Shown here: positions 3,224 to 11,418 of the stretch, piece by piece
How positions within the stretch are numbered: the stretch's first letter is position 1
How the letters are laid out: every line of letters begins with the position of its first letter
Origin: Coriobacteriia bacterium
GTDB lineage: Bacteria; Actinomycetota; Coriobacteriia; Coriobacteriales; Eggerthellaceae
Assembly: GCA_030537255.1 (NCBI GenBank)
Contig: JAUNOE010000006.1
Span: 2,501-36,998, forward strand
Length of the DNA stretch: 34,498 nt
Direction of reading: 5' to 3'
The notes under the pieces: generated by a model
What the model saw: only the letters and a program-made list of their open reading frames with translations
The model's database searches: none
What the model was told of the DNA's origin: nothing
Position numbers and translations under genes: made by a program

Positions 3224-4531
3224 ATGGGTAGCTACATTCCTGCAACCCAGGCCGAACGCGAGGACTTGATGCGCGCATGCGGTCTCAACTCCCTCGAGGA
3301 CCTATATGCCATCGTGCCCCCTGAGGCACGCGTGTCCGAGCTCGACCTGGAACCCGGCCTCTCTGAAATGGAGGTCGCTGACAAGGTGGGCGCCATCGCC
3401 GACAAGAACGTCCGCTTCAAGAGCATCTTCCGTGGTGCCGGCGCCTACCACCACTACATCCCTTCCATCGTAAAGACGATTACCTCCAAAGAGGAATTCG
3501 TCACCGCCTACACGCCCTACCAGGCAGAGATCAGCCAGGGCGTACTTCAGAGCATTTTCGAATACCAAACCCAGATATGCGAACTGACCGGAATGGACGT
3601 GAGCAACGCTTCCGTCTACGACGGCGCAACAGCAGCAGCCGAGGCCGTGATCATGCTCGAGGAGCGCAAGCGCTCTGGCGTGGTCATCTGCGGCGGAGTC
3701 GACCCGCAAACGCAACAAGTGGTCAAAACCTACTGCGCCAGCCGTAACATACCCACCACCACGATCGAGGGCGGCCTTACCACCCAGCCGGCTGAGCTCG
3801 CCCGCGTCCTTGAAGGCACAACCAACGCATCCGTCCTGGTTCAAAGCCCCAACTTCTTCGGCTCCTTGGAAGACGTGGCGGGTCTTGCCGAAGCAGCACA
3901 CGCAGCCAAAGCCAAGCTCATCATGAGCGCCAACCCCATCAGTCTTGGCATCTTGAAGACCCCTGCCGAATTGGGGGCCGACGTGGCCGTCGGCGAAGGC
4001 CAGCCCCTGGGCATGCCGCTTGCCTTTGGCGGCCCCTACCTGGGCTACATGGCAACCACCCAGAAGAACATGCGTAAGCTGCCTGGCCGCATCGTGGGTC
4101 AGACAGCCGATGACGAAGGCAGGCGCGCCTTCGTACTGACCCTGCAGGCACGCGAACAACACATCCGCCGCGAAAAGGCGTCAAGCAACATTTGCTCGAA
4201 CCAGGCCCTGTGCGCCATGACCGCCTCCGTGTACCTGGCGGCGGTAGGTCCTGATGGCCTGGCCCGCGTCGCTAGCAACTCTGCAGCACACGCCCACTAC
4301 CTGGCCGGCGAACTGGCAGGTCTGGGCTTTAAGACCCTCAACGAAGGCACCTTCTTCAACGAATTTGTCACCAGCTGCCCCATCGATGCCACCGTCCTTA
4401 TGAAGGCGCTCGAGACAAAGGGCATCCTAGGCGGTTTGCCCATCGAGCAGGGCATCCTTTGGTGCTGCACGGAACTCAACACCAAAGAACGAATCGACGA
4501 ACTTGTCTCGGCACTCAAGGAGGTGCTCTAA
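3224..4531 (+). CDS. gcvPA: Glycine dehydrogenase (decarboxylating) subunit 1
   Basis: 435 residues. This is the N-terminal half of the P protein, which is split into two subunits in Gram-positive bacteria and many anaerobes. With GcvPB it decarboxylates glycine and loads the aminomethyl group on GcvH. Family marks include the YIPATQAERE start, FRGAGAYHHYIPS near residue 70, and TPYQAEISQGVLQSIFEYQT. This half carries no PLP lysine, as expected. It starts 23 bases after gcvH. Its last codons contain AAGGAGG, the ribosome-binding site of gcvPB. Confidence 0.97.
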   Translation: MGSYIPATQAEREDLMRACGLNSLEDLYAIVPPEARVSELDLEPGLSEMEVADKVGAIADKNVRFKSIFRGAGAYHHYIPSIVKTITSKEEFVTAYTPYQAEISQGVLQSIFEYQTQICELTGMDVSNASVYDGATAAAEAVIMLEERKRSGVVICGGVDPQTQQVVKTYCASRNIPTTTIEGGLTTQPAELARVLEGTTNASVLVQSPNFFGSLEDVAGLAEAAHAAKAKLIMSANPISLGILKTPAELGADVAVGEGQPLGMPLAFGGPYLGYMATTQKNMRKLPGRIVGQTADDEGRRAFVLTLQAREQHIRREKASSNICSNQALCAMTASVYLAAVGPDGLARVASNSAAHAHYLAGELAGLGFKTLNEGTFFNEFVTSCPIDATVLMKALETKGILGGLPIEQGILWCCTELNTKERIDELVSALKEVL

Positions 4532-8660: not shown

Positions 8661-8861
8661 CAGAGTAAAGCGATTCGACCATTTGTGGACAAAAAGCGAG
8701 GCTATGGACGATTCGATCGCCCACAAAAGACAAACCTAGTTCGGGCTCTCATCAAAATGCCTGGTCAGAAGACTGCCATATCTCGGCATCTGCACCAGCG
8801 CAAGAAGGCAATCGTCCATAGCCTCGAATTTCGGCCAATTCCAAGAATTTGCCTTACTCTG
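8661..8861. repeat. 201-bp palindrome-ended repeat element, copy A
   Basis: Ends are inverted: CAGAGTAA (8661-8668) and TTACTCTG (8854-8861). A second inverted pair lies inside, GAGGCTATGGACGAT (8698-8712) and ATCGTCCATAGCCTC (8811-8825), perfect over 15 bp. A second copy at 10981-11181 has the same length and the same offsets of both inner arms (37 and 36 bases from the ends) and of the central word GGTCAGA (offset 102). No protein is encoded. The form resembles a MITE or an intergenic repeat RNA. It sits between the converging lpdA and symporter genes, outside both terminators. I found no convincing target-site duplication. Confidence 0.8.
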
Positions 8862-8892
8862 ACCCCAGTGAAGACCCGGCGACAACCCTGCA

Positions 8893-8953
8893 AGCACAAA
8901 GAAGGGCGGCGAGCCCGAGAGAGGAACCCTAACTCTCTCAAAGCTCGCCGCCC
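8893..8953 (-). terminator. Terminator after the AGCS symporter gene
   Basis: On the minus strand an 11-bp GC-rich stem (8943-8953 with 8904-8914) encloses a further GAGAGAG/CTCTCTC pairing and is followed by TTCTTTGTG. It begins 25 bases after the symporter stop. Confidence 0.8.
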
Positions 8954-8978
8954 GAATAGCAGCGGTCGTGCTGATTAT

Positions 8979-10487
8979 CTACTTTGCCTCAAGAGGCGTG
9001 TCGACCGTGCCTACCGTGGGGATCTCAGTATCGTCCTCTTCCTCGAGACGTCCCTCGTGCACCCAGTACTTGGTTTCCTTTGCGATAACCGCGGACAGAC
9101 CCAGGACTGCGATGCAGTTAGGAACGGCCATCAGGGCGTTCGAGATGTCGGAGCAGTTCCAGACCAGGTCGCCGCCGCCGATGCAGCCCCAGAACACGAA
9201 GACCAGGAACAGGATCTGATAGGGGCGGATGCCCTTGGTGCCGAACAGGTAAGTGACGGCGCGGTCACCGTACTGGCTCCAGCCGAGCATGGTGGAATAG
9301 GTGAAGGTCAGAAGGCCAACAGCGAGAACCAGAGGACCAAAGAAGGGAATGGACTCGAAGCAAGCCGTTGCCAAAGCAGCGCCACCAGAGAAGACGCCAA
9401 GCGTGCTGTCGTAGCTCATGTCGTTGTTAAAGAGCATGGTGTTGTTGTAGATGTTGGCAAGATCGGGATTGCCCAAAATGGAGGTGACCAGCATCAGGCC
9501 AGTAATGGCGCAGATGATAACGGTGTCCCAGAACGTACCAGACATGGAAACCAGTGCCTGACGTGCGGGGTTCTTGGAGATGGCGCTTGCAGCAACCAGG
9601 GGAGCAGAACCCAGGCCAGATTCGTTGGAGAACAGGCCACGCTTGAAGCCGTATTGCAGAGCCAGCATGATGCCAGAACCAACTGCGCCACCGAAAGCGG
9701 CCTGACCAGTGAAGGCGCAGGTGACGATGGTCATGATGGCCTCGCCAAGGTACTGGCCGTTCATACCGATGATGACCAAGCAGCAAACCACGTAGAAGAT
9801 GGCCATGACGGGGACGAGCCTCTCGCAGACCTTGGAGACGCTCTTCAGGCCGCCCACGATGACAATCGCGACCAGAGCGGTGACCACCAGGCCGATTCCC
9901 CACGTGGGGATGTCAGCGGCACCAGGGACGAGAGTGGTGCTGGTGATTGCGCCAGCCAGGGAGTTGGACTGGACGGATGCGCCAATGCCAAAGGAAGCGA
10001 TAGCGGTGAACAGAGCGAACAGAACTGCTAGAACCTTGCCCAAGCCCTTGTGCTTGAAGCCACGCTCGAGCGCATACATTGCACCACCAATCATGCGGCC
10101 ATTAGCGTCCTTGACGCGGTACTTCATGGAGATGTAGGTCTCGGAGTACTTGGTCGCGATGCCGAAAACGCCAGTGATCCACATCCAGAAGATTGCGCCT
10201 GGACCACCACAAAGAAGACCGGTCGCAACACCGACGATGTTACCGGTACCGATGGTGGCCGCAAGGGCCGTGGTCAATGCGCCAAACTGAGAGATGTCGC
10301 CTTCGGCGTAGGGGTCGTTCTTGGAGACCGACAGCTTGATGGCAGTGGGAATCTTCCTCTGAATGAAGCCCGTCCTGATGGTCATGAACAGGTGGGTGCC
10401 CAGCAAAAGCCAGATCAGAGCCCAGCCCCACACGAAGCTGTCTACCGCGTCGACACCCGCGGAGAAGCTTTCGATGAATGCTTCCAT
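8979..10487 (-). CDS. Sodium:alanine/glycine symporter, AGCS family
   Basis: 502 residues with about ten hydrophobic segments, so an inner-membrane carrier. The family signature GTGNIVGVATGLLCGGPG with GAIFWMW is present near residues 94-118, and the later block NESGLGSAPLVAASA is also typical. The family imports alanine and/or glycine with Na+. I chose ATG 10487, preceded by GGAAAGGAAGC; the frame runs 31 codons further upstream without family similarity. Substrate cannot be fixed from sequence, but glycine would fit the neighbouring glycine cleavage operon. Two copies of a 201-bp repeat flank the gene. I looked for a glycine riboswitch in its leader and saw none. Confidence 0.93.
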   Translation of the reverse strand: MEAFIESFSAGVDAVDSFVWGWALIWLLLGTHLFMTIRTGFIQRKIPTAIKLSVSKNDPYAEGDISQFGALTTALAATIGTGNIVGVATGLLCGGPGAIFWMWITGVFGIATKYSETYISMKYRVKDANGRMIGGAMYALERGFKHKGLGKVLAVLFALFTAIASFGIGASVQSNSLAGAITSTTLVPGAADIPTWGIGLVVTALVAIVIVGGLKSVSKVCERLVPVMAIFYVVCCLVIIGMNGQYLGEAIMTIVTCAFTGQAAFGGAVGSGIMLALQYGFKRGLFSNESGLGSAPLVAASAISKNPARQALVSMSGTFWDTVIICAITGLMLVTSILGNPDLANIYNNTMLFNNDMSYDSTLGVFSGGAALATACFESIPFFGPLVLAVGLLTFTYSTMLGWSQYGDRAVTYLFGTKGIRPYQILFLVFVFWGCIGGGDLVWNCSDISNALMAVPNCIAVLGLSAVIAKETKYWVHEGRLEEEDDTEIPTVGTVDTPLEAK

Positions 10488-10646
10488 TTTGCTTCCTTTC
10501 CGTCGTAATTGGGGGGGGCAAAGCAACGCGATTCTCTTTGAACCTTGTTCCACCTCGTGGCCACTTTGGTGGGATTCCAAGGGATTCGCACTTCGGATGG
10601 GCCCGTCGGTCCTCTAAAACAAATCCCCGGAAATCGTCTTGCTTCA

Positions 10647-10679
10647 CATCGTTGGGGAACGATGAAGGCATTATGCCTT
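10647..10679. other. Two adjoining perfect hairpins upstream of the symporter
   Basis: CATCGTT-GGGG-AACGATG (10647-10664) is followed directly by AAGGCAT-T-ATGCCTT (10665-10679). Both stems are perfect 7-bp. They lie about 160 bases upstream of the symporter start and could be part of its leader RNA or paired operator sites. Confidence 0.45.
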
Positions 10680-10740
10680 GGTTCGCATTGCCCACGTGTT
10701 ACACGACGGGCACCATCAGATGAAACGATTCAAAATGGGG

Positions 10741-10792
10741 GTGTGAACGGTTTCTAAGTCCATCTTTAAGCGTTACTTAAAACCTTTCACAC
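10741..10792. repeat. Long inverted repeat with nested palindrome
   Basis: The left arm GTGTGAACGGTTTCTAAG (10741-10758) matches the reverse complement of CTTAAAACCTTTCACAC (10776-10792) with one mismatch and one extra base. The spacer plus inner right arm also holds TTTAAG-CGTTA-CTTAAA (10765-10781), so two alternative hairpins share CTTAAA. It could be an operator for the symporter gene 254 bases away or the end of an old mobile element. Confidence 0.5.
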
Positions 10793-10829
10793 ACGACGAG
10801 CGGCGCTGAACCGCATCGAGTTTCGCTAA

Positions 10830-10925
10830 GAATCAGAGTCAAAGCTGGGGTCGAAACCAAAGCCAGGATCAAAGCCTGAATCTGAGCCAGAGCAAAAATC
10901 AAACTCGAAGCCAGAATCGAAAGCT
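10830..10925. repeat. Sixteen degenerate hexanucleotide units
   Basis: Read in sixes from 10830, the tract alternates words such as GAATCA, GAGTCA, GGATCA with AAGCCA, AAGCCT, GAGCCA. All 96 bases fit the pattern with substitutions. No start codon and ribosome-binding site pair was found in any frame across it. A weaker tract of similar words lies at about 11195-11255, on the far side of repeat copy B. Confidence 0.55.
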
Positions 10926-10980
10926 AAAGAAGTTGCCTTATTGGCTTCGACGGCGAAACACTAGGGGTGGCAACGGTAAG

Positions 10981-11181
10981 TAGAGTCAACAAATTTGGGC
11001 ATTCCTGGACAGAAATTGAGGCTGTGGACGATTCGAAGTTCTCACCAACGCTTGTTCAAGACGACTCTCCAGCAAAAGCCCAGGTCAGATTTCTAACCAG
11101 CTCAAGAGTTGGGGGCCAACCTTCAAGCAAAGCGTCCATAGCCTCGATTTTTGGCCATAATTCAAGAATCCGTTTACTCCG
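10981..11181. repeat. 201-bp palindrome-ended repeat element, copy B
   Basis: Second copy of the element at 8661-8861, in the same orientation. Ends are TAGAGTCAAC and GTTTACTCCG, imperfectly inverted. The inner arms are GAGGCTGTGGACG (11018-11030) and CGTCCATAGCCTC (11133-11145), with one mismatch that would be a G-U pair in RNA. The GGTCAGA word is at offset 102 as in copy A. Similarity is highest in the arms and falls in the centre. It lies upstream of the symporter, between that gene and a PPOX protein gene. Confidence 0.8.
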
Positions 11182-11418
11182 ACCCACGAAATGCGACCAA
11201 GCCCGAGCAAAACCAGCACTAAATCAGCGTCGAAGCCCAGACGGAGCCAGAGCCAAAACCCACCCCACGCCAATACACCCCAAGCTGACTCGTCCAAGCC
11301 AAAGAAAGGCATCGCAAAAAGCGCCCCGTAGGGCACTGGAAATCAGATATTCGGTTCGGGGAAGCCCGTCGCTCCCGCCCGAGGCGAATTGCTGGGTAAA
11401 AAATTGTTAGGCGAATTG

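Follow-up and report, generated by a model that had tools for sequence, protein, structure and literature searches.

Two 201-bp stretches of DNA with inverted ends lie in the same orientation, one on each side of an AGCS symporter gene (about 8979-10490, minus strand), and the question they raise is whether such units are mobile elements, RNAs or sites on which proteins assemble. Their parts are listed in Table 1 by position in the window, i.e. the whole stretch of 34,498 nucleotides that was analysed (contig C86 of the host genome). The geometry proposed for them in an earlier, sequence-only reading (positions, equal length, inverted ends, an inner inverted repeat and a central GGTCAGA) was confirmed in full. 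The inner inverted repeat is perfect in the first copy, C86a (GAGGCTATGGACGATT / AATCGTCCATAGCCTC), and carries an A-to-G change opposite T in the second, C86b. Ungapped, the copies agree at 111 of 201 positions, which are clustered in the arms and the centre. As to interpretation, the view of a multi-copy, non-coding, MITE-like family stood and that of an RNA structure did not, while the conserved centre and the helical spacing of the arms had been missed.

Table 1. Positions of the two element copies and their parts in the window
Feature	Position	Strand	Basis
Element copy C86a (class A)	8661..8861	- (strand where core reads TGACC)	copy comparison, arm profile
C86a left outer tip CAGAGTAA	8661..8668	+	conserved in arm alignment A1
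C86a left 28-bp arm TGGACAAAAAGCGAGGCTATGGACGATT	8686..8713	+	arm alignment
C86a central motif (CTGACCAGGCATTTT on minus strand; differs from the consensus at two positions)	8754..8768	-	
C86a right 28-bp arm, inverted	8810..8837	-	arm alignment
C86a right outer tip TTACTCTG	8854..8861	-	
Element copy C86b (class A)	10981..11181	-	copy comparison, arm profile
C86b left outer tip TAGAGTCA	10981..10988	+	
C86b left 28-bp arm TGGACAGAAATTGAGGCTGTGGACGATT	11006..11033	+	arm alignment
C86b central motif, exact (CTGACCTGGGCTTTT on minus strand)	11074..11088	-	
C86b right 28-bp arm, inverted	11130..11157	-	arm alignment
C86b right outer tip TTACTCCG	11174..11181	-	

An interspersed family in the host genome

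The host genome is an Eggerthellaceae draft (1.57 Mb, 124 contigs, 82% complete), in which copies were collected by DNA and pattern searches and then with a sequence profile of the arm (R1). This profile identified exactly 21 arms genome-wide (E-values of 6e-15 to 1.6e-9, the next match having E = 0.16), a result that chance cannot account for. They constitute 11 copies, named class A, of which 10 have complete arm pairs and one has a pair cut by a contig end; nine are additional to the two in the window. No solo arm was found in the genome with R1, all complete copies being paired. Identities within the class are 71% for the arms, 85% for the core, 38% for the inner spacers and 29% for the outside flanks. 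Judged by eye, the arms are not palindromic. About 7 of 10 copies are placed between convergent genes and 3 of 10 between tandem ones, none lies between divergent genes, and the neighbouring genes of class A copies included no integrase gene. In the copy on contig C73 (L055, about 3340-3390), the outer tip and a neighbouring inverted copy of it form a perfect terminator hairpin (GGTGACGCTG..CAGCGTCACC, followed by a T run).

An origin of the window pair by local duplication around the symporter gene was considered, as C86a and C86b are nearest neighbours in the genome and both have the rarer right spacing of 40 bp. Their inner spacers are 37% and their flanks 29% identical, which is mid-rank among 45 pairs of copies, and nine other copies are found elsewhere in the genome. 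In spacer and flank, the two thus resemble one another no more than they resemble the remaining copies, and a local duplication was rejected as highly improbable. Neither a lack of further copies nor a purely local duplication, the two outcomes that the sequence-only reading had named against itself, was found.

Copying of the unit is indicated by a younger subfamily (C57, C93, C95 and C36) whose members have spacer sequence in common (52-61%) between unrelated flanks. A further comparison concerned the spacer between the YchF and aldo-keto reductase genes, which is 930 bp long with the copy on contig C118 (L054, 3400-4330) and roughly 60-165 bp in three sister species. Since about 500 bp in addition to the element account for part of this difference, the locus, which was the only element-free site found, does not give a clean, exact junction. 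These observations are consistent with an ordinary MITE, i.e. a DDE transposon shortened by deletion, which a transposase mobilises in trans and whose terminal inverted repeats are the arms. As in a MITE, the copies are multiple and have inverted ends and, as had been claimed, no coding capacity. On the other hand, no target-site duplication was seen by eye at class A copies. Of the earlier suggestion that a helper transposase had transposed the elements, the copying between unrelated flanks stood, while neither a transposase with matching ends nor any arm outside element pairs was found in the assembly (82% complete).

Degenerate, short, tandem-like words (GAGCCAGAGC, AAAGCCAGGATC) were observed around C86b (window positions 10840-10935 and 11200-11270), and a comparable spacer expansion was seen near the C118 copy.

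A fixed centre between changing arms

The class A arm pattern had no match in GTDB or IMG/VR contigs, and the arm profile had none in 137 other Eggerthellaceae genomes; the wider family emerged only once the centre was used. In the class A alignment, the common centre is CAAAAGCCCAGGTCAG (CTGACCTGGGNTTTTG on the other strand), and the consensus across the family is CTGACCTGGGNTTTTRC, a fixed and asymmetric motif of 15-17 bp. A search with YTGACCTGGGNTTTT gave matches in 69 of 138 Eggerthellaceae genomes, representing 26 of 48 genera (one match with the reversed-pattern control), so the exact core is absent from half of the genomes; its copy number among related genomes ranges from 0 to 24. Elsewhere in the taxonomic class, the centre was matched once each in about 18 of some 285 genomes. 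Our literature search on the motif string, Eggerthella repeats and an attP motif found nothing relevant.

The part common to different species is the centre and not the arms. In the sister species G013, the element located 3' of the same AGCS symporter gene shares this centre and has different arms, and even the host genome has a class B with arms of its own (C41, C49, C90, C91, C96 and C110). Other genera have different arms around the same core, with inverted-repeat scores that reach 39 where shuffling gave maxima near 12, and in the first set of sites examined inverted arms were well above shuffled sequence at about 55 of 89. The sequence of the arms is thus lineage-specific around a fixed centre. 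About 20 classes of arms, trimmed by eye, may share one skeleton, TG.CA.AAA......GTT.TG.AC (it scores 12.2 bits, and shuffled arms at most 6.8), which is suggestive only. Two genomes have peculiar arrangements. In G104 (L156-L160), with 24 core matches, several cores have a perfect hairpin directly upstream (GAACCAGGAATATGCCTGGTTC) and distant arms are absent, and in G070 (L149, L150, L152 and L153) there are two tandem arms per side, 41 bp (four helical turns) apart.

Positions of elements are common to the closely related genomes G002 and G006. On the 3' side of the AGCS gene, an element is present in G000 and G013, with different arms, and none is found there in G014. Together with the YchF comparison, this indicates that copies come and go and that arms change between species.

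Arm-to-core distances differ within each class only in steps of 10-11 bp. These are: (i) class A, left 40, 51 and 61 bp, right 40 and 50 bp; (ii) class B, left 53, 64 and 75 bp, right 42, 53 and 64 bp; (iii) class C, left 71 and 81 bp, right 60, 70 and 81 bp; and (iv) class E, left 31 and 41 bp, right 41 and 51 bp. Among pairs of similar same-side arms from 137 sites, which are not independent of one another, the spacing differed by 0-2 bp in 257 cases, 3-8 bp in 2, 9-13 bp in 73, 14-18 bp in none and 19-23 bp in 24; this corresponds to about a dozen separate spacing changes, each on whole turns. Spacing by whole turns places the core and the arms on the same helical face, as in a wrapped protein complex. 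Each copy is very probably a DNA site for such a complex, and neither a gene nor an RNA.

A structured RNA or an intergenic hairpin transcript is, by comparison, very improbable. The arms can fold into long hairpins, and in a few copies (C41, C51 and C20 of G013) the centre lies inside a terminator-like hairpin. Nevertheless, over the inner 28 positions of class A, a copy's own arms form 23.7 standard pairs as against 23.9 for arms shuffled between copies, and in the outer arm part own partners pair no better than shuffled ones either. The covariation suggested by the sequence-only reading, in which changes of the inner arm would keep pairing, therefore came down to a single A-to-G change opposite T, i.e. 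one G-U wobble. No element matched Rfam, which together with the failed covariation test rules out an RNA family, and the helical steps have no reason in an RNA. Three related candidates were rejected as well: (i) a resemblance of CCAGGTCAG to SRP RNA (no Rfam match), (ii) an intrinsic terminator as the general function (a second hairpin half is present in few copies only) and (iii) a phase-variable inverton, as the outer flanks of the two arms are of two types, each of which is mostly found on one and the same side of the core; C74 looks flipped, a weak indication.

The centre near dif, oriC and integrase genes

The core was also found outside paired elements. In eight loci, a dif-like site (TTGATAATATATGTTATGTAAAGT, with 1-4 mismatches) is located 36-743 bp from it, several of them in the nrdR/dut neighbourhood, and six genera have a core near dif. 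Several genera also have the core in oriC-like regions, next to rpmH and yidD, and some of these regions contain a DnaA-box-like TTTTCCACA. Most of these dif- and oriC-associated cores have no inverted arms. Near nrdR/dut and dif, the core is joined by another conserved module, GAGGCTCTGAGAGCCGTTCTAAGGCCC, in L084, L086, L098, L099, L101, L102, L142, L419, L432 and L439; in L083 this module seems to sit next to the core in the opposite orientation.

Such positions raise the possibility of a host site for chromosome organisation (parS-like, or architectural at oriC and the terminus), spread or kept for folding, segregation or dif recombination. The positions common to G002 and G006, and the elements 3' of the AGCS gene in G000 and G013 despite their different arms, likewise speak for it. 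However, the copy number of 0 to 24 among related genomes, the YchF locus without an element in three sister species and the fact that the core is not general in Eggerthellaceae make this reading unlikely.

Integrase genes are another recurrent neighbour. Among the actinobacterial and phage loci in the matches listed, 19 bear a tyrosine-integrase gene, and in 9 of these the core is at most 170 bp from it, as against 1.3 expected. The 3' end of a tRNA gene abuts the core in L171, L211 and L233, a sequence like a tRNA 3' end adjoins it in phage loci L295, L346 and L350, and repeated arm-like sequences are found beside it in several integrase loci. The exact 17-mer was present in 19 viral contigs and its reversed control in none. 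Judging by the sequences, the layout appears attP-like, with the core placed where a bending factor would sit. Among the GTDB matches, Streptomyces (L163-L241) has more than its share of the exact 17-mer YTGACCTGGGGTTTTGC, and contexts such as TTGACCTGGGGTTTTGCTCGTATTGCTCACGCGTCAACATCTTGTTAAC recur there.

Against the MITE reading stand the centres that lie near dif and oriC without arms, those near integrases, the helical steps, a conserved part that is central and not terminal alone, and spacers that are saturated whereas the centre and arms are kept. Overall, we consider a MITE of the ordinary kind unlikely, much as we do the chromosome-organising site.

Inverted sites around a putative bend

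The explanation that accounts best for these data, which we hold to be somewhat probable, is that inverted protein-binding arms surround a site for a host bending factor within a non-autonomous interspersed element. A DNA-bending factor of the host would bind the centre, the arms would be bound by a different, rapidly changing protein, and bending would bring the two arms together; units of ~200 bp, non-autonomous, would have spread into gene 3' regions. The bending-factor reading of the centre, a candidate assignment of moderate probability, is based on the occurrence of the motif near integrase genes and tRNA 3' ends in attP-like sites, near dif and in oriC-like regions. That the arms are bound by a putative tyrosine recombinase is possible and rather doubtful; this is among the least certain parts, as is whether the complex would only move the element or also serve the chromosome.

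The first candidate for the bending factor would be the actinobacterial IHF family (NF041260), encoded in all 40 Eggerthellaceae genomes searched and in two copies in the host genome. Against it stands that half of the family lacks the exact core, although 40 of 40 genomes encode the protein. Moreover, mycobacterial IHF bends DNA and was reported to bind without sequence specificity (PMC3724605), and the core-binding factor may therefore be another protein.

Four known systems resemble the elements. In RIB/BIME-1 of E. coli, two inverted REPs surround a centre bound by IHF (PMC2817692); like these, the elements are interspersed and intergenic, lie at gene 3' ends and have two inverted units around a centre. 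However, their arms are ~28 bp long and do not look like REP palindromes, the centre does not resemble the IHF consensus, copies are few (about 11 per class), and it is the arms that change between species while the centre stays. In parS of plasmid P1, inverted protein boxes flank an IHF-induced bend (PMC5016525), which is comparable to inverted sites around a putative bend, whereas here there are many chromosomal copies and no known ParB partner. The Correia/NEMIS elements of Neisseria are also small, non-coding repeats with inverted ends, and an IHF site lies within their 155-bp form (PMC2229807); they make target-site duplications, none of which was seen by eye here, and helical-step spacing is not described for them. 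Finally, the elements have in common with attP sites of tyrosine integrases the central motif, which in actinobacterial and phage loci is found close to the integrase gene and the 3' end of a tRNA gene, and repeated arm sites flanking a bend site; they differ in that the dispersed copies carry no integrase gene and that no crossover site was recognised in them. By analogy, the elements may work like all four, with inverted binding sites around a bend. With no integrase gene present, and neither a transposase nor a duplication found, the elements cannot be assigned to any of these systems. On the best reading, the elements form a family of sites for DNA assembly that are dispersed among gut-type actinobacteria.

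Actinobacterial integrases need a host factor, and we know of no host-factor site for them. A bolder and fairly unlikely proposal is that CTGACCTGGGNTTTTRC is a specific actinobacterial bending-factor site used in attP, in oriC, near dif and in the dispersed elements, that the arms are dif-like tyrosine-recombinase sites, and that the element is a miniature synapse that could invert its middle. If this were true, CTGACCTGGGNTTTTRC would be the missing actinobacterial counterpart of the IHF site. A motif that recurs in helically phased intergenic elements, near dif, in oriC-like regions and in attP-like sites of phages offers a concrete sequence to test, and the family is a case of interspersed repeats whose centre is kept although the arms are replaced throughout the genome from one sister species to the next.

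Apart from the elements, the window carries a glycine riboswitch aptamer at 1414-1491 (Rfam RF00504, 60.9 bits), along with genes for a dihydrolipoamide dehydrogenase and for the AGCS symporter.
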